The notes under the pieces: model-generated
The model's input: only the letters and a program-made list of their open reading frames with translations
What the model was told of the DNA's origin: nothing
Databases searched by the model: none
NCBI GenBank assembly: GCA_017447265.1
Contig: JAFSOA010000001.1
Span: forward strand, 372,001-436,000
Length of the DNA: 64,000 bases
Origin: Bacteroidales bacterium
Lineage (GTDB): Bacteria > Bacteroidota > Bacteroidia > Bacteroidales > UBA932
Direction: 5' to 3'
Shown here: positions 16,984-38,083 of the stretch, in pieces
Layout of the letters: every line of letters starts with the position of its first letter
Position numbering within the stretch: the first letter of the stretch is position 1
Translations under genes and position numbers: made by a program

Positions 16984-17469
16984 ATGTACGATCGTATGAA
17001 AACGCACAAATCCCATACCCGAAAAGAGAAAGGCGGGTTTTTCGCCCTGTTGCTGGCCCTGGTAGGCATCAGCACGACCGGATGCGTCTGCATGTACGGC
17101 TCTCCCACGGCGGACTGGGCCGTCAAGGGAAAGGTCATCGATGAAAACGGACAGCCGGTCCCGGGCCTGCAGGTGGCGCTCGGCAACCGGATGGACAACG
17201 AGCCCGGCGTCATCTATGACGAAAACTACTGGCCGCTCGATACCCTGCAAACGGGCCCGGACGGTGTGTATCAAGTCGTTTCCAGCGGGTTCCCGCTCTC
17301 GAAACTGCAGATCGACGTGAAGGATATCGACGGCGAAGCGAACGGCGGCGAATTCAATGATGCTACGCTGGTCATTAGCGACTTCAAGTTCGAAGAGGGG
17401 AAAGGCCCCTGGTATTCCGGCCACGCCGACATCCAGGTTCCCGACATCGTCGTCAAGAAGAAAAACTGA
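16984..17469 (+). CDS. Radical-SAM-associated putative lipoprotein
   Basis: The small protein (161 residues, or 157 if started at 16996) has a basic N-terminus, the hydrophobic segment FFALLLALVGISTTGC with lipidation Cys, and the family hallmark MYGSPTADWAVKGKVIDENGQPVPGLQVAL. It matches the Bacteroidota family known as the putative lipoprotein of the rSAM/lipoprotein system. The second part is a carboxypeptidase-regulatory-like beta-sandwich ending in a lysine tail. The partner radical SAM gene is normally adjacent but is not found on either side here, so this copy is an orphan within the window. Function of the family is unknown. Confidence 0.75.
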   Translation: MYDRMKTHKSHTRKEKGGFFALLLALVGISTTGCVCMYGSPTADWAVKGKVIDENGQPVPGLQVALGNRMDNEPGVIYDENYWPLDTLQTGPDGVYQVVSSGFPLSKLQIDVKDIDGEANGGEFNDATLVISDFKFEEGKGPWYSGHADIQVPDIVVKKKN

Positions 17470-27717: not shown

Positions 27718-29049
27718 CTACAGCCTCCTTACCGCTTCCTTGAACTGGCGTCCGCGGTCCTCGTAGTTCTTGAACAGGTCGAAACTGGCGCAGCAGGGAC
27801 TCAGCAGCACCGTGTCGCCCGAAACAGCGAGATCCGCGCATTGATTGACACATTCTTCAGCCGAGCGGGTCTCGAAGACGGGCACCATCCCGCCGAAGAA
27901 ATCCTTGATCTTCTTGTTGTCCACGCCCAGGCAGACAATGGCTTTCACCTTCTCGCGCACCAGGTCTGCGATGGGGGCGTAGTCATTGCCCTTGTCGGTG
28001 CCGCCCAGGATCAGGACGATCGGGGTCTGGACGCTTTCCAGGGCGTACCAGGTGGAGTTGACGTTGGTAGCCTTCGAGTCGTTGACGTAGAGCACGCCGC
28101 CCACGGTCATCACTTTCTCCATGCGGTGTTCCACGCCTTCGAAGGTGGTCAGCGACCGGCGGATGGTCTCGTTGGTGACCTTCATGATTTTGCCGGTGAT
28201 AGCCGCCGCCATCGAGTTGTATACGTTGTGCCGGCCTTCCAGGGCCAGGTCCTGCACCAGGATGTCGAATTCGTCGCCGTCGTAGCGCACCCGCAGGGTG
28301 TCGTTCTCAAGCCAGGCGCCTTCCTCGACCGTGCCGTTCTGGGTGAACGGCAGCTTCTTGGCCTGGACCACGATCTTGTTGAGTTCGCCGATGGTCACTT
28401 CGTCGTCGGAGCAGAAGATGAAGCAGTCTTCCGGCTTCATGTTGCGCGTGATGCGGAACTTGGCGTTGATATAGTTCTGGAAGCAGTGGTCGTAGCGGTC
28501 GAGGTGGTCGGGCGTGATGTTCATCAGCACCGCGATGTCGGCCTTGAAGTCGTACATGCCGTCGAGTTGGAAACTGCTGAGCTCCAGGACGTAAATGTCA
28601 TGCTTCTCCGTGGCCACCTGCATGGCGTAGCTCTTGCCGATGTTGCCGCCGAGGCCCACGTTCAGGCCGGCGTTCTGCAGCAGGTAGTAGATCAGCGAGG
28701 TGGTCGTGGTCTTGCCGTTGCTGCCGGTGATGCAGATTTTCTTGGCCGTGTCGTAGTAGCCGGCGAATTCGATCTCGGAGATGACGGGCGTGCCCTGCTC
28801 GCGCAGGCGTACCACCAGCGGTGCCGTCTCGGGGATGCCGGGGCTCTTGATCACGAGATCGGCGTCGAGCACCTTTTCGGGGGTGTGGCCGCCTTCTTCA
28901 AAAGGGATTTCCCATTTCTGCAACTGGCTGCGGAACTGCTCCTTGAGCGTACCGCTGTCCGAGAGGAAGGTGTCGTAGTGCTGGACTTTCGCCAGGACTG
29001 CCGCGCCCACGCCGCTTTCGCCGCCGCCGAGAATGACTGCTCTTTTCAT
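27718..29049 (-). CDS. murD: UDP-N-acetylmuramoylalanine--D-glutamate ligase
   Basis: MurD (443 residues) adds D-glutamate to UDP-MurNAc-L-Ala. Features are the N-terminal GGGESGVGAAVLAK, the ATP loop ITGSNGKTTTTSLIYYLL and the acceptor segment NITPDHLDRY. VNDSKATNVNSTWYAL (KATN motif) and LILGGTDKGNDY are MurD-specific in the C-terminal domain, followed by LSPCCASFDLFKNYEDRG. Gaps are 2 nt to mraY and 1 nt to ftsW. Everything is canonical. Confidence 0.96.
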   Translation of the reverse strand: MKRAVILGGGESGVGAAVLAKVQHYDTFLSDSGTLKEQFRSQLQKWEIPFEEGGHTPEKVLDADLVIKSPGIPETAPLVVRLREQGTPVISEIEFAGYYDTAKKICITGSNGKTTTTSLIYYLLQNAGLNVGLGGNIGKSYAMQVATEKHDIYVLELSSFQLDGMYDFKADIAVLMNITPDHLDRYDHCFQNYINAKFRITRNMKPEDCFIFCSDDEVTIGELNKIVVQAKKLPFTQNGTVEEGAWLENDTLRVRYDGDEFDILVQDLALEGRHNVYNSMAAAITGKIMKVTNETIRRSLTTFEGVEHRMEKVMTVGGVLYVNDSKATNVNSTWYALESVQTPIVLILGGTDKGNDYAPIADLVREKVKAIVCLGVDNKKIKDFFGGMVPVFETRSAEECVNQCADLAVSGDTVLLSPCCASFDLFKNYEDRGRQFKEAVRRL

Positions 29050-29051
29050 GC

Positions 29052-30242
29052 TTATCTGATTTTCAAGGTTACGATGGTGATGACCGCCAGCAGGATCGAT
29101 ACGATCCAGAACCGCACGACGATCTTGTTTTCAGGATGGATCTGGGCCGGTTTCTGCAGCAGCGCGTCCGGGTTCTCCTTCTGGTAGTGGTGGTGCAGGG
29201 GAGACATGCGGAAGATGCGCACACCGGTGCCGGTCTTTTTCTTGGTATATTTAAAGTAGTACCGCTGGATGATCACGGAGAGGCTCTCCACGACGAAAAT
29301 GCCGCAGAGGATGGGGAGCAGGAGCTCCTTCCGGATGACGACGGCCAGTACGGCGATGATGCCGCCCAGCGCCAGGGAACCCGTGTCGCCCATGAACACC
29401 TGCGCCGGGAAGGCATTGTACCACAGGAAGCCCAGCAGGGCGCCCACGAAGCAGAACACGTAGACGGTCACTTCGCCGATGTTGGGGAGGTACATGATGT
29501 TGAGGTATTCGGCAAAGCCGGTGTGACCGGACAGGTAGGCGAGCACGCCGAGCGTCGCTCCGATGATGGCCGAGACACCCGCCGCCAGGCCGTCCATGCC
29601 GTCGGTCAGGTTGGCGCCGTTGGAGACGGCGGTGATGATGAAGGTGATGACGAGCACGTAGACGCCGCCCTGCAGGGCGCGGACCACGGGGCCGGAGAAG
29701 GGAACCAGCCATTTATAGTCAAACTCGTTGCCCTTGAAGAAAGGAATGGTGGTGCGGCTGTAGCTCATGCCCGGGTCGGCCGTGAGATAGAGGGTCAGGC
29801 CCACGATCACGCCCAGCAGCACCTGGCCCACGATCTTGTACTTGCCGTTGAGCCCGTCCTTGTTGTGCTTGAATACCTTGATATAGTCGTCGAGGAAGCC
29901 CAGCAGGCCGAGCCAGACGGTCGTCAGGATCAGCAGCAGGATGTTGACGTTGGTCAGGTCGCCGAAGAGCAGGATCGGAATCAGGATCGAGATCAGGATG
30001 ATGATGCCGCCCATGGTGGGGGTTCCCTTTTTCTGCAGCTGGCCTTCCAGGCCCAGGTCGCGGATGGTCTCGCCAATCTGTTTCTTCTGCAGCATGGCGA
30101 TGATCCGCTTGCCCACGAGCATCGAGGTCAGGATGGCCACGACGGCGCAGCTGATGCCACGGAACGAGATGTAGTGCATCAGACCGGCGCCCGGGAAGTC
30201 GTATCCGGCGTTGTTGAGGTATTCAAAGAGATGATAGAGCAT
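29052..30242 (-). CDS. mraY: Phospho-MurNAc-pentapeptide transferase
   Basis: MraY is an integral membrane transferase that moves phospho-MurNAc-pentapeptide to undecaprenyl phosphate (lipid I). The 396 residues include about ten helices, the cytoplasmic motif [13 protein letters not shown], the catalytic region [10 protein letters not shown] with the DD pair, [15 protein letters not shown] and the C-terminal [10 protein letters not shown] loop. The protein is longer than the ~360-residue E. coli enzyme, as in other Bacteroidota with extended loops. It follows murE after 12 nt. Confidence 0.96.
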
Positions 30243-30254
30243 AGGGTTTCTCGT

Positions 30255-31715
30255 TTATTTCATTTCTGCAAAGGTTTCGGCGATGACTTCCTTGTCGTCG
30301 AAGTGGATCTTGGTCGTGCCGATGATCTGATAGTCTTCGTGTCCCTTGCCGGCGACCAGGATCACGGCGCCTTCCGGAGCGGTCATCAGGGCGGTGCGGA
30401 TGGCCTCGCGGCGGTCGGTGATGAACAGGCTCTTGGCGCGGGCCGGGGTGTCCATGCCGGCGCGGATTTCCTGGATGATAGCCTCGGGGTCTTCGGTGCG
30501 CGGATTGTCGGAGGTGACCACGACGCGGTCGGCGTATTTGGCGGCGATGGCCCCCATCTCGGGGCGCTTGGTGCGGTCGCGGTCGCCGCCGCAGCCGAAC
30601 ACGCACACCAGGCAGCGGTCCTGGCAGGTCTCGCGGAGTGTCTTCAGGGCGTTCTCCAGTGCGTCGGGCGTGTGGGAATAGTCCACTACGCCGGTCAGGT
30701 CTTTCCCGCCACGGACAAAGTCGAGCCGGCCGGCCACCGGGCCGAGGGCGCTCAGCTGCACCAGCACCTCTTCGGGCTTGGCGCCGAGCAGCACGGCCGT
30801 GCTGTATACGGCCAGCAGGTTGTAGGCGTTGTGCGCGCCGATGAAACGCGTCCAGACCTGGGTGCCGTCCAGGCTGACCAGCATGCCTTCCAGGCTCTCT
30901 TCCACGATCTTGCAGCGGAAGTCGGCCATGCGCTTGCAGGCATAGGTGCGGATCTGCGCACGCGTGTTCTGCACCATCACTTCGCCGTTCCGGTCGTCGA
31001 TGTTGGTGAGGGCGAACGCCTCTTTCGGCAGTTCGTCGAAGAAGCGTTTCTTGCAGTCGCGGTAGGCGGCGAAGGTCTTGTGGTAGTCGAGGTGGTCGTG
31101 GGTCAGGTTGGAGAAGATGGCCACCTTGAACTGCAGGCCGGCGATACGCTCCTGGTCTACGGAGTGGGAACTCACTTCCATGAAGCAGTAGCTGCAGCCT
31201 TTCTCCACCATCCGGGCCAGCAGGCCGTTGAGTTCGATGGGGTCGGGGGTGGTGTGGGAGGTCTCCAGCCGTTCGCCGTCGATGAAGTTGGCGATGGTGG
31301 AGATCAGGCCGCAGGCCCATCCCAGCTGGGTGAAAAGGTTGTAGAGCAGGGTGACGGTCGTGGTCTTGCCGTTGGTGCCGGTGATGCCCACCAGGTTCAG
31401 CTTGCCCGACGGGTGGTCATACCAGTTGTCGGCGGCCAGGGCGAGGGCCTTGCGGCTGTCCGCCACTTTCACCAGAGTGGTGTCGCCGAGGCTGTCCGCG
31501 TCCGGGATGTCATTCTGGTAGAGAACGGCGCTGGCGCCGGCTGCGACGGCCTTGGCGATATAGGCGTGTCCGTCGACAGCCGTTCCCGCCACGGCGATGA
31601 AGAGGGCGCCGGGGCGGCAGGTCCGCGAGTCGAAGGTCAGAAAAGTGATATCCCGGTCCAACTCACCGCGGGTGGCCACGACGTCGATGCCTTTCAATAT
31701 GCTAGTCAGTTTCAT
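30255..31715 (-). CDS. murE: UDP-MurNAc-tripeptide synthetase (probably meso-DAP-adding)
   Basis: MurE (486 residues) adds the third amino acid of the stem peptide. It has the ATP loop GITGTNGKTTTVTLLYNL, SSHSVDQERI, NLTHDHLDYH and VVDYSHTPDALENAL. The C-terminal motif SDNPRTEDPEAI matches the DNPR signature associated with meso-diaminopimelate-specific MurE, so the organism should have DAP-type peptidoglycan. The start overlaps the ftsI stop by 14 nt. Confidence 0.96.
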   Translation of the reverse strand: MKLTSILKGIDVVATRGELDRDITFLTFDSRTCRPGALFIAVAGTAVDGHAYIAKAVAAGASAVLYQNDIPDADSLGDTTLVKVADSRKALALAADNWYDHPSGKLNLVGITGTNGKTTTVTLLYNLFTQLGWACGLISTIANFIDGERLETSHTTPDPIELNGLLARMVEKGCSYCFMEVSSHSVDQERIAGLQFKVAIFSNLTHDHLDYHKTFAAYRDCKKRFFDELPKEAFALTNIDDRNGEVMVQNTRAQIRTYACKRMADFRCKIVEESLEGMLVSLDGTQVWTRFIGAHNAYNLLAVYSTAVLLGAKPEEVLVQLSALGPVAGRLDFVRGGKDLTGVVDYSHTPDALENALKTLRETCQDRCLVCVFGCGGDRDRTKRPEMGAIAAKYADRVVVTSDNPRTEDPEAIIQEIRAGMDTPARAKSLFITDRREAIRTALMTAPEGAVILVAGKGHEDYQIIGTTKIHFDDKEVIAETFAEMK

Positions 31716-33759
31716 GCTGCTTGTATTGTTCTTTCAGTTTGAGGGTGATGTTCTTTTCCCTGACGGTGTCGCCGGCGGCCGGAAGCTGGCTTTCCACGAT
31801 GCCCTGGCCCTCGAAAGAGACCTGGTAGCCCGATTTTTCGAGCAGGGCGAGCGCTTCGCGCAGTCCCATTCCTTTCACGTTCGGCACGAGTCCTTTGTGG
31901 ATGTCTTCCTGTCCCTGGAACGACAGCATGCCGTCGTTCTGCGGGAGCGCGCCTTTCTTCGGCAGCGGGTCCTGCCAGTCTACGGCCGAAGCGTAGATGC
32001 CTTCGGCGACCTGCCGGAAGACCGGGCCGCACCAGGTGGCACCGTAGAAGTTTCCGAAGGTCGGTTCGGAATAGACCACGGCAATCATGGTATACTTGGG
32101 CGATTCGTAGGGGAAGAAACCCACGAAGGTGGCCTGGTGCATCTTGTGACCCGCCCTGTCCTCATATCGGCCTGTGTTGGGGAAGACGATACGGGCGGTG
32201 CCTGTCTTGCCGGCCACTTTCACCGGGCAGCCCTGGAAGACGCGGTGGCCCGTGCCGCCTTCCGATTCGACCACGCCGCGCATGGCGCGCCACATCTCAT
32301 GGGCCGTCTCCTTGCTGCAGATGGTGCCGATCTTCTCCGGTTTGAATTCCTTGACAATCTCCCCGTCCTTCTGGTAGTTGCGCACCAGGTGCGGGCGCAT
32401 CATCACGCCTTCGTTGGCGAGTGCGTTGTAGAAGTTGAGCGTATGGAGCGGGGTGATTTCCACGGTGTAGCCCATGGCGGTCTGGGGCAGATCCTTCATG
32501 TTCCAGGCCCCCGGATTGACCTTCCGGTCGGGGTCCTTGAGGTGTGCATGGGCCATGCCCTTGAGGTCAAACGGGAAGTCGTAGGTGATGCGGCGCTCCT
32601 CGGTGAGTTTCCGGAAGAATTCCTTCGGGTTTTTGTCGTAATATTTGACCGCCTGCATGCGGAAAATGTTGTTGGAGGAGATTTCGAAGGCCCGCAGGAC
32701 GGAGATCGTGCCCGGATAGTTTCTCAGGTAAGAGTCCTCGAAGGGCTTGCCGCCGCCGTAGTTCCAGATGACGGGGGCGGGGACCACGGTCTCGAGCGTG
32801 AGCTTCTTGTCTTCGAGGAGGGTGGTGAGGGTGGCGCCCTTGAAGACGCTGCCCGGTTCGCCCTTGCGGCCGATGGCGTAATTGTAGGTCTCGTCGAAGC
32901 CGCCCTTTCCGTTCTTCTCAAGATTGACCATGGCCTTGATCTCGCCGGTGGCGACTTCCATCACCACGACGGTACCCGCATGGACTTCATTGGTTTTGCG
33001 GAGGACGTCCATCAGGGCGTTCTGGGCCAGGTCCTGCATGTCGATGTCGAGGGTCAGCTGCACGTCGAGGCCGTCCACGGGCTGGATGGTCTCGCGGTCG
33101 GTATCCACAATCCAGTTGCGGCCTTCGGTCAGCCGCATCGGCTGGATGCCGTCGGTGCCGCGCAGGATGGAGTCGCAGCTGCCTTCGATGCCGATGGTCG
33201 GAATCTCGCTCTGGTCCTTGATGTAGCCGAGGGTACGGAAGCCCAGGCGGCCGTAAGGGTAGGTGCGGTGGTCCACCTTCACCTCGTCGCGTCCGCCGCG
33301 TCCGCGACCTTCCCGCAGGATGGGGAAGGAGGAAACTTCCTTCATCTCCTGGTAGGTGAGGAGGCGCCGGTTGAGGAAGAGATAGCGGCGTCCGCCCTTG
33401 AGGCCTTCCTTGCGGCGCTCTACGATTTCTTTCTTGTACTGGGCGGCCTTCTTGTCTTTGTAGAAATTGGCCAGGCAGATGGCCAGGGAGTCGATGCCGC
33501 TGGCGAAGAGGGCGGAGTCGGGCTGCACGCAGTCCATGCCCATGCGGTACTCGGGGATGGAGAAGGCCAGGTAGCGTCCGTCGTCGGCGAGGATGCTGCC
33601 GCGGGTGCAGGGAAGCACGTCTTCACGGGTCGTCTTTTTCGAATAGCTGCGCCCGGGCTTGTTGATGAACTGCAGGTTCACGATCTGCCCTGCTGCCACC
33701 AGTGCCATCAGCACGAACAGCAGATAGAAAGCGCCGACTTTATGGATATTGACCTGCAT
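31702..33759 (-). CDS. ftsI: Division transpeptidase (PBP2/FtsI type) with PASTA domain
   Basis: This class B penicillin-binding protein crosslinks septal peptidoglycan. A transmembrane helix is near the N-terminus (FYLLFVLMALVAAGQIV), followed by a dimerisation domain and the transpeptidase core. The core has SxxK in GSVFKGATL, SxN in SSNNIF and KTG in GKTGTARIV. The last ~65 residues form a PASTA domain (LVPNVKGMGLREALALLEKSG), as in SpoVD-like proteins. I start it at 33759 (MQVNIHK), 4 nt after the ftsL stop; an alternative ATG at 33780 would overlap ftsL and add MNWTNRA. Confidence 0.93.
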   Translation of the reverse strand: MQVNIHKVGAFYLLFVLMALVAAGQIVNLQFINKPGRSYSKKTTREDVLPCTRGSILADDGRYLAFSIPEYRMGMDCVQPDSALFASGIDSLAICLANFYKDKKAAQYKKEIVERRKEGLKGGRRYLFLNRRLLTYQEMKEVSSFPILREGRGRGGRDEVKVDHRTYPYGRLGFRTLGYIKDQSEIPTIGIEGSCDSILRGTDGIQPMRLTEGRNWIVDTDRETIQPVDGLDVQLTLDIDMQDLAQNALMDVLRKTNEVHAGTVVVMEVATGEIKAMVNLEKNGKGGFDETYNYAIGRKGEPGSVFKGATLTTLLEDKKLTLETVVPAPVIWNYGGGKPFEDSYLRNYPGTISVLRAFEISSNNIFRMQAVKYYDKNPKEFFRKLTEERRITYDFPFDLKGMAHAHLKDPDRKVNPGAWNMKDLPQTAMGYTVEITPLHTLNFYNALANEGVMMRPHLVRNYQKDGEIVKEFKPEKIGTICSKETAHEMWRAMRGVVESEGGTGHRVFQGCPVKVAGKTGTARIVFPNTGRYEDRAGHKMHQATFVGFFPYESPKYTMIAVVYSEPTFGNFYGATWCGPVFRQVAEGIYASAVDWQDPLPKKGALPQNDGMLSFQGQEDIHKGLVPNVKGMGLREALALLEKSGYQVSFEGQGIVESQLPAAGDTVREKNITLKLKEQYKQHETD

Positions 33760-33763
33760 AGCC

Positions 33764-34156
33764 CTATTTGTCCAGTTCAATGCGTTTGGGCGGTTTGACC
33801 GGAGCGTGCAGCTTCGAGCCGCTCGCTTTCAGCAGACCGTCGATCCGGGTGCGGTTGTTCATGCCCACCAGGTCGAGGGTGCGTTGCTGGTAACTGATGC
33901 GCAGTTCCTGCAGCGCCCGCTCGTTTTTCTGTACTTTCACGAGGTTCTGTTCCACCATGAGGCTCCAGGCGATGGAGGCACAGATGATGAGGAACACGAA
34001 GAAGATGAAACCGAGCTGACGGTCCACGCCCCATTCGATCAGCTTGTCCCCGCTCAGGTAGCTGACCACCTTGTCGAAAATCCGTCTGAGACGGCCTTTT
34101 TTCCGACGCTGGTCCTGATTCTGGTCCTGGTCCTGGTTCTTGTTCCGTTTCTTCAT
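33764..34156 (-). CDS. ftsL: FtsL-like division protein
   Basis: This small bitopic protein (130 residues) lies between rsmH and ftsI, the standard position of ftsL. A polar N-terminus with a Gln/Asp repeat (QDQDQNQDQ) precedes one transmembrane helix at about residues 48-67 (LGFIFFVFLIICASIAWSL). A short periplasmic coiled-coil-prone segment follows (NLVKVQKNERALQELRISYQQ). FtsL bridges FtsQ/B and FtsW/I. Sequence identity to model FtsL proteins is low, so the call rests on position and topology. The Q/D tract is encoded by imperfect CTGGTC hexamer repeats at about 34108-34147. Confidence 0.8.
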   Translation of the reverse strand: MKKRNKNQDQDQNQDQRRKKGRLRRIFDKVVSYLSGDKLIEWGVDRQLGFIFFVFLIICASIAWSLMVEQNLVKVQKNERALQELRISYQQRTLDLVGMNNRTRIDGLLKASGSKLHAPVKPPKRIELDK

Positions 34157-34160
34157 CGTC

Positions 34161-35030
34161 TTACTGCCTTTCGGCGACCCTCAGTTTTGCGCTGCGCGCG
34201 CGCGTGTTGGAAGAAATTTCTTCCTCGGCGGGAAGAATGGGTTTCTTGTTCACACGCTGGAGCTGTCCTGCCTGACAGCCATCCCTGATTGCGGTCTTGA
34301 CGATGCGGTCTTCGATAGAATGGTATGTAATGACGGCCAGCCGTGCTCCTTGCCCGAGCGATCGGAAAGCCCCTTTCATAAACCCCTCCAATGAAGCCAT
34401 CTCGCCATTGACTTCAATCCTCAGCGCTTGGTATATCTTTGCCAAATATTTATGTTCAAATAATTTAGGCAGAACAGGTGCTAGCGCTCTGCCTAAATCG
34501 TCCGTGGTCTTCAACGGACTTCTCTCCCGGGCCGAAACCACCAGTTCCGCAACCCGCCTGCTGCTCTCTACCTCGCCGTAAAGCCGGAAGATCCTTTCCA
34601 GGTCTTCCCCACTATAACTATTTACTATATCAGCCGCACACACCGGTGCGTCAGCATTCATGCGCATGTCCAGCGGCGCGTTTTCGAAACGGAAGGAGAA
34701 GCCTCGTTCTCCCGTATCGAACTGGTGCGACGATACGCCCAGGTCCGCCAGTATTCCATCCACCGCCGCATATCCGTAGTACTTCACGAAGTTGTGCACA
34801 AAGCGGAAATCATTGTGGACAACGGTCAGTCTCGGATCATCGGGCGCATTGGCCAGGGCGTCCTGGTCTTTGTCAAAAGCGATCAGCCGGCCTTTCGGAC
34901 CGAGATGCTTCAGAATCTCGCGGCTGTGGCCGCCTCCGCCAAAGGTCGCATCCACGTAGACACCGTCTTCGCGAATGGCAAGCGCCGAAATGCTCTCGTT
35001 GAGAAGGACGGGAGTGTGGTACGCAGACAT
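34161..35030 (-). CDS. rsmH: 16S rRNA (cytosine(1402)-N4)-methyltransferase
   Basis: RsmH (MraW) methylates C1402 in the decoding centre of 16S rRNA with SAM. The 289-residue protein shows YHTPVLLNESISAL, the SAM-binding loop VDATFGGGGHSREIL, ILADLGVSSHQFD, RGFSFRFENAPLDMRMN and the late AVITYHSIEDRIVK, all diagnostic. It lies 18 nt after mraZ. Its conserved partnership with mraZ at the head of the division cluster is retained. Confidence 0.96.
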   Translation of the reverse strand: MSAYHTPVLLNESISALAIREDGVYVDATFGGGGHSREILKHLGPKGRLIAFDKDQDALANAPDDPRLTVVHNDFRFVHNFVKYYGYAAVDGILADLGVSSHQFDTGERGFSFRFENAPLDMRMNADAPVCAADIVNSYSGEDLERIFRLYGEVESSRRVAELVVSARERSPLKTTDDLGRALAPVLPKLFEHKYLAKIYQALRIEVNGEMASLEGFMKGAFRSLGQGARLAVITYHSIEDRIVKTAIRDGCQAGQLQRVNKKPILPAEEEISSNTRARSAKLRVAERQ

Positions 35031-35048
35031 TTCGGGAATCTCCTTCTG

Positions 35049-35495
35049 CTAACCGAGGATCTTTTCGGCCAGCGCCACGAAGTCCTCGCTCTCCATCTCT
35101 CGCTCCTCGTACTTCTTCTTGTCCCAGATCTCGATCATGTGGTTGCTTCCCGCAAAGACGACTTCCTTGTCGATGCCCGCCTTCTCGAGGAGGGTCTTGG
35201 GAATGGTCATGCGTCCCAACTTGCCGTCCGGCTCTACGTCCGCAGTGCCTCTCATGTATTCCCGCCAGAAGGTATCGTGCTCCCTGTTGAAGGGGTTCAA
35301 ACGGCTTCTGACCGCTTCGGAATCCTTTTCCCACTCATCGTAGGCGTACATTTCGAGGCACTCTGCGAAGAGAGACTTTTTAACTACGAAGCGAAGGTTG
35401 GCACCTTCGCCCATACTGGATTTGAAGGCGGAAGGGAAGATCAGTCTCCCCTTGTCGTCGACCTTTGCCTTGTAGCAACCGATAAACTTCGCCAT
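35049..35495 (-). CDS. mraZ: Transcriptional regulator MraZ
   Basis: MraZ is an AbrB/SpoVT-like DNA-binding protein of 148 residues that forms rings and represses its own operon in other bacteria. The first half IGCYKAKVDDKGRLIFPSAF and the second half GRMTIPKTLLEKAGIDKEVVFAGS are the two swapped-hairpin repeats with the DxxGR signature present in variant form. It is the first gene of the 16-gene minus-strand run. Three TGGAA repeats at exact 10-bp spacing lie just upstream of its -7 element, consistent with autoregulation. Confidence 0.93.
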   Translation of the reverse strand: MAKFIGCYKAKVDDKGRLIFPSAFKSSMGEGANLRFVVKKSLFAECLEMYAYDEWEKDSEAVRSRLNPFNREHDTFWREYMRGTADVEPDGKLGRMTIPKTLLEKAGIDKEVVFAGSNHMIEIWDKKKYEEREMESEDFVALAEKILG

Positions 35496-35527
35496 CGTAT
35501 CCTATATGCGTTCAGTGATGTGTGTTG

Positions 35528-35535
35528 CAAAGTTA
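35528..35535 (-). promoter_or_regulatory. -7 element (TAACTTTG) of the mraZ/dcw operon
   Basis: The minus strand carries TAACTTTG 32 nt before the mraZ start, a perfect TAnnTTTG. It is the only clear promoter ahead of the 16-gene run ending at truB. Confidence 0.7.
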
Positions 35536-35543
35536 AGAAAATT

Positions 35544-35568
35544 TTCCACATTCTTCCAAATAATTCCA
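35544..35568 (-). promoter_or_regulatory. Probable MraZ-binding site (three TGGAA repeats, 10-bp period)
   Basis: On the minus strand TGGAA occurs at 35568-35564, 35558-35554 and 35548-35544, each exactly 10 bp apart. Known MraZ sites in other bacteria are short TGGGN-type repeats separated by 5-nt spacers, the same period. The array covers the -33 region, so bound MraZ would block RNA polymerase. Confidence 0.6.
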
Positions 35569-35667
35569 AAAATTTACACCAACAATTTTATCAACAACAA
35601 AAAAACCGTCCGGGACATCCTCGAACGGTTTATTTCTGCATCCTGCCGGACGCGATCCGGTATCTTG

Positions 35668-37593
35668 CTAGTTCCTTTCCGTGACGAAACGGAAGAAGGG
35701 CTCGATGTCTTTCTTGTCGGGGAAGCGCGCGATGTAGCAGTGGTTGCCCAGGTCGTCGGAGAGGGCGTCGGGAACGCGTCCCTGGAAGCTGATGGCCGCC
35801 CCGTATTTCTCCATGATTTCCTGATGGCTGTGCGCATAGGCCAGACCGTCGCGACGGGAGGCGTAGCCGCAGTAGAACGGCTCGCCCTCCGGCTTGCGCC
35901 GCTCGTCGAAGGCCACCATGTCGGCCCAGATCTGGAACACGTCGGTGGAGTGGGCGTAGTTCATCATGTCGGGGGTGTAGCCGCCCGGCGGGCGCATGTT
36001 GACCTCCAGACCCACGTAGTCGCCTTTCTTGCCCAACCCTTCACGGTCGCGGTCGAGCTGGAAGAATTCCAGGTGCACGAAACGGCCCGGCGTGTTGAAG
36101 GCCTTGACCGTGCGGCGGCCGATGGCGGCGAGTTTCGCCGGCACCGTCTTGTTGACCCAGTAGCAGGTGTCCAGGTTGCCGTGCACGATGTCCATGATGG
36201 GCGTGGGGAACACGGAATTGTTTTCGAAGACCGGTTCCAGGCGTGAATTATAGATCGCATCGTAGCTCACGAGCAGGCCCGTGATGAATTCTTCGATGAC
36301 GAAGCGTCCGAAATCGGGATGGGCTTCGAACCAGGCTTCCAATTCCGCGTCGCTCTGCAGCTTGAAGGTGCCGGAGGCTCCCATGCCGCTGTCAGGCTTG
36401 GCAATGACCGGATAGCCGGTCTTCCTGACGAAAGCGCGGATGGCGTCCATGCCCTCGGAGCCCTTGACCTGCCGGGCCGTCGGGATGCCGCCCAGCGCAT
36501 AGTATTTCTTCATTTCGGACTTGTTGCGGATGGCCGCGATCCGGTCGCTGTGAATGCCGGAGGTGATGTTGAAATCGGTCCGCAGGCGGGCGTCCTGCTC
36601 CAGCCAGTATTCGTTGTTCGACTCGATCCAGTCGATCTTGCCGTACTTGTGGGCAAACCAGGCTACGGCACGGTACATTTCGGCGTAGTCTTCCAGGTTG
36701 TTCACTTTATAATAGTCCGTGAGATTCTGGCGAAGTTCCCACGGCAGGTTCTCGTAGTTGGTGTCCGCAATACCCAGCACGTTGACGCCGTTGTGTCTGG
36801 CGCCGGCACAGAAGTGCCAGTAGGTCTGCGGGAAGTGGGGGGAAATGAAAATCAGGTTCATGAATGAATAGGATGTATTCTCGTCACAGATGCGGTGCAT
36901 GGTGCCGCCGGAAATCTCCCAGGCTTCACCGTAAAGGACGCTGCGGCCGTCCTTGACCCGGATGTAGCCGCCGTCGGGGAAGGTGTAGAAGCGGCGGCCC
37001 AGGCTGTCCGGGAACGCCACGTCTTCGAGCAGGCGCCGGCCGTCCACCCGGTAGTTGCGCACCTGCTCCAGGTGCGGGATCAGGTTGATGTCTGTCAGTC
37101 CCAGGCCGGTCAGCCAGCGCCGGTAGGCGGGATCGACCACTTCGCCGGGCAGTTCCGGGTGGGCGTATACTTTGTCGGCGCAGTTCATGGAGCCGGCGCT
37201 GCAGCCCATCACCACGCCGGGAAAGTCCTGCAGGAGTTTCCGCAGGCCGATCTCGTGGATGAAGCGGTTCTGGGTGGGGGTATGGCCGCCGCAGAGCACC
37301 ACCCAGTCGGCCTGCCGCACCAGTTCGGCGGCCCGGTGGGCGTTGCGGCGCTCAAGCATCGTGATGGTGCCGGTCCGGATGCCGGACTTGTGGATGCAGT
37401 CGCTCATGCCTTTCTTCACCGAGCGGGTGAAGCCGCGGTCGTCGGGGGCGGCGCTGATGAGCAGTACGCGGGGGGCGCGGCGGCCGCCGGTGGCTTCGTT
37501 CAAAGCGGCTTGTACGGCCGCCAGGAAGCCATTGTCTGTTGTGAAATGGTCTTCTCCGTAGCGGGTTGGACTTCCGGTGAGAAAGAGTGTCAT
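35668..37593 (-). CDS. Fusion of S51-type (cyanophycinase/PepE-like) peptidase and ATP-grasp ligase
   Basis: Residues 1 to about 240 form a peptidase S51-like class I glutamine-amidotransferase fold: LFLTGSPTRYG start, VLCGGHTPTQNRFI, the nucleophile motif GCSAGSMN (Ser132) and NLIPHLEQ (His174). Residues 245-641 form an ATP-grasp enzyme: MNLIFISPHFPQTYWHF, IESNNEYWLE, VIAKPDSGMGASGTF (Lys399), FVIEEF (Glu434/435) and LEVNMRPPGG (Glu530, Asn532 for metal). Both active sites look intact. The junction contains an ATG (36861) that could also start the ligase alone. One half cleaves amide/peptide bonds and the other makes them; the substrate is unknown. A -7 element ends only 8 nt before the ATG. 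Confidence 0.85.
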   Translation of the reverse strand: MTLFLTGSPTRYGEDHFTTDNGFLAAVQAALNEATGGRRAPRVLLISAAPDDRGFTRSVKKGMSDCIHKSGIRTGTITMLERRNAHRAAELVRQADWVVLCGGHTPTQNRFIHEIGLRKLLQDFPGVVMGCSAGSMNCADKVYAHPELPGEVVDPAYRRWLTGLGLTDINLIPHLEQVRNYRVDGRRLLEDVAFPDSLGRRFYTFPDGGYIRVKDGRSVLYGEAWEISGGTMHRICDENTSYSFMNLIFISPHFPQTYWHFCAGARHNGVNVLGIADTNYENLPWELRQNLTDYYKVNNLEDYAEMYRAVAWFAHKYGKIDWIESNNEYWLEQDARLRTDFNITSGIHSDRIAAIRNKSEMKKYYALGGIPTARQVKGSEGMDAIRAFVRKTGYPVIAKPDSGMGASGTFKLQSDAELEAWFEAHPDFGRFVIEEFITGLLVSYDAIYNSRLEPVFENNSVFPTPIMDIVHGNLDTCYWVNKTVPAKLAAIGRRTVKAFNTPGRFVHLEFFQLDRDREGLGKKGDYVGLEVNMRPPGGYTPDMMNYAHSTDVFQIWADMVAFDERRKPEGEPFYCGYASRRDGLAYAHSHQEIMEKYGAAISFQGRVPDALSDDLGNHCYIARFPDKKDIEPFFRFVTERN

Positions 37594-37600
37594 ACCGCCG

Positions 37601-37608
37601 CAAAGATA
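37601..37608 (-). promoter_or_regulatory. -7 element (TATCTTTG) just before the S51/ATP-grasp start
   Basis: TATCTTTG on the minus strand ends 7 nt before the ATG at 37593, implying an mRNA with almost no leader. It directly abuts the mscL terminator (shared base 37608). Confidence 0.6.
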
Positions 37609-37637
37609 AAAAAAAGCCCTGAATTGGGCTTTTTTTT
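37608..37637 (-). terminator. Terminator after mscL (symmetrical)
   Basis: Eight A, GCCC, a 6-nt loop, GGGC and eight T form a 12-bp stem-loop with a T tract in either direction. On the minus strand it follows mscL by 17 nt. Confidence 0.85.
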
Positions 37638-37654
37638 ATCCGGGGCTGCTTGCT

Positions 37655-38083
37655 TTATTTCTTTTTCAGTTCGTCGCGGATTTCGCGGAGGAGCTGGATG
37701 TCTTCGGGAACGACGGGCTCGGCCGGTTCCGGAGCGGGTTCTTCTGCTTTTTTGCGGGTCATCTTGTTGATGCCTTTCAGGACGAAGAAGATGCAGAGCG
37801 CGATGATGAAGAAGTCGACGGCGGCCTGGATGAAGTTGCCGTAGGTGAGGTTGACGGCCGGTTTTACGACTTCGCCGGCGGCGTCGAGCACTTCGTGACG
37901 AAGGGTGACGGCCAGCTTGGTGAAATCGACGTTGCCCAGCAGCGCGCCGATGAGCGGCATGATGATGTCGGAGACGAGCGAAGAGACGATCTTGCCGAAC
38001 GCACCGCCGATGACCACACCGACGGCCATGTCCATCACATTGCCCTTGAGGGCGAATTCCTTGAATTCTTTAACGAGTCCCAT
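37655..38083 (-). CDS. mscL: Large-conductance mechanosensitive channel
   Basis: MscL (142 residues) is a homopentameric inner-membrane channel opened by membrane tension that releases solutes during osmotic downshock. The N-terminal amphipathic helix [17 protein letters not shown]1 ([22 protein letters not shown] with its glycine-rich pore face), the periplasmic loop, TM2 ([20 protein letters not shown]) and the C-terminal bundle with [10 protein letters not shown]-like motif (here [14 protein letters not shown]) are all present. It is flanked by its own promoter and terminator and is monocistronic. Confidence 0.97.

Follow-up and report, generated by a model that had tools for sequence, protein, structure and literature searches.

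The window, a stretch of 64,000 nucleotides from a Bacteroidales genome, carries a gene in which an S51-type serine hydrolase is fused in frame to an ATP-grasp ligase. The fusion and the catalytic residues of both halves are conserved in its homologues, many unfused relatives of the ligase are paired with a hydrolase of another family, and the fusions are nested among these hydrolase-paired ligases in the ligase tree. From a comparison of sequences we consider, with moderate confidence, that the protein would be a bifunctional enzyme in which an amide ligase is joined to a serine hydrolase that cuts the ligase's product or an analogue of it, the S51 domain having replaced an ancestral partner of the PF00756 family. 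The original prediction, made from the letters of this DNA alone, had proposed a make-and-break pair on one chain; this general idea is supported, as are the conserved in-frame fusion and the expected catalytic residues in both halves.

Table 1. Features of the fusion gene, in window coordinates.
Feature	Position	Strand	Extent	Basis or remark
Fusion gene, S51-type serine hydrolase + ATP-grasp ligase	35668..37593	-	641 codons	ORF, Pfam, profile, homologous loci
N-terminal S51 half	36874..37593	-	residues 1-240	PF03575 over cut-off
C-terminal ATP-grasp half	35671..36861	-	residues 245-641	profile match to 4wd3
Putative promoter element TATCTTTG	37601..37608	-	ends 7 nt before ATG	TAnnTTTG type

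The reading frame (Table 1) starts with ATG, encodes 641 amino acids and has no internal stop. The best 80 of 590 stretches confirmed in a genome-contig search were taken as homologous loci; they are 69-92% identical to the fusion, and the organisms in their record titles are uncultured members of the Bacteroidales, Bacteroidia or Prevotellaceae, with ruminant stomachs a common source. All 80 hold one frame of 630-670 codons, matching the fusion from residue 1 (79 loci) or 7 (L054) to residues 637-641; in L077 the best piece stops at residue 593, and the 3' end may be frameshifted. Across 85 aligned fusions (the window's own, those of L002-L081 and those of L163-L166; as L166 repeats the contig of L036, 84 are distinct), the junction from G222 to N246 has an identical residue count in every one. 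The 641-codon fusion is thus borne out by an intact frame and by 80 of 80 homologous loci, and the fusion gene is no assembly artefact: single-frame loci and constant junction length rule out an assembly or sequencing error at 36861, and the former exclude the loss of a stop codon at about that position, which had been considered when the fusion was first proposed. The residues named at that time, Ser132 (in GCSAGS), His174, Lys399, Glu434/435, Glu530 and Asn532, are correctly placed and invariant in all 85. It had also been suggested that an internal ATG at 36861 could yield the ligase alone. This codon does lie at the junction, as Met245, at a position matching the start of unfused ligases, but the residue is Val in 5 of the 85 fusions, and a separate ligase made from it is therefore no conserved or general feature.

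The N-terminal half matches Peptidase_S51 (PF03575) over residues 22-176 with 31.2 bits (cut-off 23.9), and Ser132, Glu147, His174 and Asp207 are invariant in the 85 aligned fusions (84 distinct). The Ser-His-Asp/Glu set of the S51 family is present as Ser132, His174 and Asp207, the third residue being assigned by analogy. In the portions of PMC9239234 and PMC11078827 that bear on this, the triads are S134-H170-D198 in Streptomyces Orf2 and S133-H168-D196 in MccG, the Asp following the His by 28 residues in both, and the third catalytic residue of PepE is a Glu 35 residues after it. By analogy, Asp207, which follows His174 by 33 residues, is likely to be the third triad residue. Orf2 Asp147, described as lying near the substrate pocket (PMC11078827, in part), may correspond to Glu147, which perhaps binds substrate. 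Like PepE, CphB, MccG and Orf2, the S51 half passes the PF03575 cut-off and keeps the Ser, the His and a later acidic residue; unlike them, it is fused to a ligase and resembles solved S51 enzymes weakly, the best match being the peptidase DR_1070 (E 0.0035). Some S51 proteins are without peptidase activity, according to a section of PMC9239234.

Residues 366-487 of the fusion contain matches to five ATP-grasp-type Pfam models, all under their cut-offs (best score 21.6 bits against 23.2), and unfused homologues pass such a cut-off (21.8 against 19.8 in L150, 28.7 against 27 in L157, 31.7 against 27 in L188). For a profile built from 50 homologues, the best solved match is the L-amino acid ligase 4wd3, which we take to be RizA (E 1.4e-15, profile positions 288-547; second-best solved match 2e-7), and in the alignment the two coincide at the ATP-site Lys, the HLE motif and the E-x-x-x-R motif. 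Lys399, Glu434, Glu435, Glu509, Glu530, Asn532 and Arg534 are invariant in the 85 aligned fusions (84 distinct), as is Gly403; Glu509 and Arg534 thereby extend the set of residues named earlier. Lys399, Glu434/435, Glu509, Glu530 and Asn532 are presumably the ATP and Mg ligands expected of the ATP-grasp superfamily, so that homology to a solved enzyme and the expected ligands are both present. The best solved match of the fusion, with the ATP site aligned, is thus to one of the ATP-grasp L-amino acid ligases (4wd3; BacD; BL00235). The fusion differs in that Asn532 aligns with an Ala of 4wd3 and that the C-terminal family model of these ligases is absent from the six Pfam models matching the fusion.

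Unfused relatives of the ligase reveal a second kind of partner. A PF00756 alpha/beta-hydrolase ('putative esterase') adjoins the ligase on the same strand in 21 of 31 loci, 19 times downstream and twice upstream, and GxSxG and HDWxWW occur in 21 of 21 of these hydrolases (with Pfam assignment for those scanned). No such hydrolase is found at any of 83 fusion loci, and no S51 gene lies near any of the 31 unfused ligases within the surrounding DNA examined. This pairing, in 21 of 31 unfused-ligase loci against 0 of 83 fusion loci, is a new observation. The check proposed with the original prediction, whether the two domains are fused or adjacent in other genomes, thus turned up a different arrangement, the gene beside 21 of 31 unfused ligases being that of a non-homologous hydrolase. 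The ligase half is 59% (L150) and 57% (L151) identical to ligases of such pairs, in which, by contrast, the hydrolase belongs to another family and has its own gene. The text available to us from the open-licence PMC literature holds no name or function for the pair.

Among the pairs are some from Peptoclostridium (Bacillota; in P. acidaminophilum the ligase is EAL2_RS13890 and the hydrolase EAL2_RS13885), from Sinorhizobium and Pararhizobium (Alphaproteobacteria) and from genomes of the window's class; 11 of the 21 belong to one family (f206) and are not independent, and two of the 31 unfused-ligase loci, L159 and L160, are near-copies. Within 299 genomes of the window's family the hydrolase occurs once (E up to 1e-10), adjoining an unfused ligase, and its three best relatives in the plasmid collection (46-49% identity) are genes adjoining the ligase; no ligase was found near H64, H67 and H71, the three inspected of 12 weaker plasmid hydrolases (about 32% identity). 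At four distant ATP-grasp loci (23-25% identity), the hydrolase is adjacent in L172 and L173 and not in L174 and L175. The run at L172:5715-13424 comprises two PF00756 hydrolases, an M17 aminopeptidase, the ATP-grasp protein, an unassigned gene, a glutamate-cysteine ligase of family 2 and a class I amidotransferase, and L173 is built like it (annotation being for L172 only); such a run is perhaps a small-peptide pathway. Pairing is not universal. Ten of the 31 unfused ligases have neither PF00756 hydrolase nor S51 gene nearby in the DNA examined (the contig of one, L154, ends about 0.8 kb past the gene), so a cutter is not required, and for the six of them that belong to the window's family no hydrolase and no S51 gene was detected anywhere in the genome, so that a partner is not obligatory.

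The search covered the window's phylum, plasmids, phage records and one genome-contig scan that was filled by close relatives. The fusion is present in 31 of 299 genomes of the same family (with one internal stop each in G830 and G880) and in 14 of 40 of the same genus; another 7 of the 299 hold an unfused ligase of 49-66% identity. Among 295 genomes of the same order, the window's own included, there are six unfused ligases (39-59% identity) and no fusion besides that of the window. In a tree of the ligases with f206 as outgroup, the fusions, L156 apart, form one group nested among hydrolase-paired ligases, and the hydrolase-paired sister pair L112/L113 joins them at 99/96. This tree holds 15 fusions, 17 unfused ligases of an earlier tree (L143, L146 and L160 left out) and 7 of the 11 f206 ligases (L178, L184, L186 and L187 missing); ten of its forks are open, and some branches, deep ones included, are long. 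The same join is seen in the earlier tree, of 24 fusions and 19 unfused ligases (L146 left out), in which the outgroup does not form one side of a branch. On the tree with the f206 outgroup, 5 changes account for the state of the partner, against a mean of 16.4 when shuffled, and 0 of 200 shuffles gave a value as low. The shortest account of the S51 domain is one gain and one loss, the latter in L156; the fusions fall on one side of a branch, with no loss in L156, in 6% of 200 bootstrap trees. The ligase of L156 (genome G800), placed among the fusions and without S51, follows an AMP-binding enzyme gene at a distance of about 12 nt. The simplest history is one in which a ligase accompanied by the alpha/beta-hydrolase lost this hydrolase and gained a fused S51 hydrolase.

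As to the source of the S51 domain, relatives of it occur as stand-alone genes on Lactococcus plasmids (36-41% identity among the matches listed) and in one faecal fragment. A search of 246 further genomes from the phylum yielded no S51 gene of the fusion kind, and the domain therefore looks imported. GC3 is equal in the two halves (0.846 and 0.843) and gives no sign of recent import, so the event, if it took place, was not recent. A viral origin was also considered and rejected, scans of viral_contigs giving no relative and four 'phage' records being unverified faecal fragments. Nor do the stand-alone S51 genes of L145 and L149 share a preceding gene, the two that stand there not being homologous.

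The genes around the fusion are housekeeping genes that vary from locus to locus. In the window, the adjoining stretch 27718-35495 (minus strand) encodes mraZ, rsmH, an ftsL-like gene and a PASTA penicillin-binding protein (by Pfam), and continues with murE, mraY and murD (recognised from sequence); mscL lies on the fusion's other side, opposite this division and cell-wall cluster. An operon with the cluster was rejected, MraZ being found in just 7 of 80 homologous loci (L002-L006, L010 and L036; directly after the fusion in six, displaced in L002) and different neighbours elsewhere, such as MutS, EF-G, S2, EF-Ts and an ATP synthase-type subunit (10 proteins in 4 loci). A TAnnTTTG motif, presumably the Bacteroidota -7 element, lies no more than 60 nt upstream of the fusion in 60 of the 80 loci, at -12 to -17 in 51 of them, and is found in 0 of 80 between -120 and -61. 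In the window, the putative promoter would produce a leaderless or nearly leaderless mRNA, and the position of the motif, together with the changing neighbours, suggests that the fusion has a near-leaderless promoter of its own. A promoter and terminator scan of 35400-37750 found none, and a search of the whole window for TAnnTTTG with a -33 element gave 4 matches against 1.23 expected, none of them at the fusion. The same TAnnTTTG spacing is seen at five window ORFs of at least 90 codons, with starts at 16984 (+), 40077 (+), 46252 (+), 40037 (-) and 37593 (-).

How might the two halves work together? According to the reading that we prefer, the C-terminal half would, like L-amino acid ligases, use ATP to activate a carboxylate for coupling with an amine, so that a small amide or dipeptide is formed, and the N-terminal half would cut an amide bond as a serine hydrolase with Ser132, His174 and Asp207, its target being most likely the ligase's product or a close analogue. 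With both halves active on a common substrate, the two opposed active sites on one chain would set the amount or the identity of the product. The ancestral ligase would have had a gene to itself and a PF00756 alpha/beta-hydrolase as its partner, and in one gut Bacteroidales lineage the S51 domain would have replaced this partner and become fused. That one hydrolase fold has apparently been exchanged for another next to the same ligase suggests that the ligase's task includes cutting. To our knowledge, few enzymes combine opposed sites for making and breaking in a single chain. In E. coli, Gss joins an amidase and a synthetase in this way. The account of TryS in part of PMC11124245 likewise describes an N-terminal half that cuts an amide and a C-terminal ATP-grasp half, the same amide being made and undone. 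The fusion resembles both in having the cutter first and the ATP-grasp domain second on one chain, but their cutter is a cysteine/histidine amidase whereas that of the window is an S51 serine hydrolase, and neither the CHAP nor the glutathionylspermidine synthetase model is among its six Pfam matches (E up to 10). The fusion is no member of the Gss/TryS group, though it may work alike.

Two other readings of the fusion appear unlikely, and to the same degree. In one, the hydrolase would act upstream of the ligase without undoing its product: the S51 half would cleave an Asp-X or isoAsp-X dipeptide or amide, and the freed amine or acid would feed the ligase, which makes something different. S51 enzymes do cut Asp-X and isoAsp-X (PMC11078827, in part), and the constant junction length in all 85 fusions is consistent with a fixed geometry; however, the partner in the relatives is a non-homologous hydrolase, and such a fold swap suits a shared cutting task better than a channel. 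In the other, both halves would be active on different substrates and fusion would just equalise their amounts. The stand-alone S51 genes of Lactococcus plasmids and the faecal fragment, the unfused ligases with neither partner and the retention of the ligase in L156 after its seeming loss of S51 all agree with this, but both halves and their catalytic residues are kept in 85 of 85 fusions while the neighbours vary, and a hydrolase recurs next to the ligase in other phyla.

That the S51 half supplies the ATP-grasp half with ammonia, in the manner of carbamoyl phosphate synthetase, is very improbable. The S51 fold resembles that of class I glutamine amidotransferases, amidotransferase plus ATP-grasp is a known combination, and stand-alone relatives are annotated as 'Type 1 glutamine amidotransferase-like'; yet all 85 fusions have Ser132 at the nucleophile position, where glutamine amidotransferases have a Cys, the family matched is PF03575 and no GATase model is among the six Pfam matches, and in the relatives the partner of the ligase is a hydrolase of the esterase type. 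Least credible of all is the metabolism of a cyanophycin-like polymer, to which the original prediction had linked the gene. Cyanophycin synthetase does have an ATP-grasp domain. Cyanophycinase is an S51 peptidase (PMC9239234, in part) and residues 356-439 match TIGR02068 weakly (E 0.00065), but this match reaches 17.8 bits against a cut-off of 850, a synthetase passes that cut-off in 0 of 16 fusion genomes (as against 1 of 14 control genomes, the window's own genome being 79% complete), the S51 half bears just a weak likeness to solved S51 enzymes and the ligase half is better matched by 4wd3, so that the link is not supported.

A hint of the chemistry involved comes from sister ligases. In L150 and L151, which come from the same taxonomic order as the window, the ligase and its PF00756 hydrolase lie inside family 2 encapsulin operons. 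L150 encodes a family 2 encapsulin shell, which passes the cut-offs of NF041163 and NF041162, ThiS, ThiF, cysteine synthase-like and serine acetyltransferase-like genes, and a cysteine desulfurase whose closest model is the encapsulin cargo one (695 bits, where 800 is the cut-off); by similarity, L151 has the shell, desulfurase, ThiF, synthase-like and transferase-like genes, plus JAB and DsrE genes. For cysteine-desulfurase encapsulin operons, part of PMC8346489 puts serine O-acetyltransferases and rhodaneses first in enrichment among the accessory genes and names neither the ligase nor the hydrolase; the paper has 0 occurrences of the term 'ligase'. These operons hint at a sulfur or cysteine link for the ligase, and a cysteine-related amide as its substrate is a guess drawn from the cysteine operons of the sister ligases. 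However, other hydrolase-paired ligases have unrelated contexts. A PF19307 shell protein turned up in 0 of 16 genomes with the fusion, though the control gave no signal in any of its 14 genomes either.

With this in mind, one may speculate further, although we think it quite unlikely that the whole of the following is right: ligase and serine hydrolase would form a widespread, unnamed system whose cutter was swapped and fused in the window's lineage, the amide would be a storage or carrier metabolite for cysteine or sulfur, and the fusion would be a TryS-like reversible enzyme making a new bacterial thiol conjugate. The ligase-hydrolase pair itself occurs in three bacterial groups and lies in two encapsulin sulfur operons, and the apparent fold swap offers a direct route to the product, through comparison of the ligase with and without its cutter.
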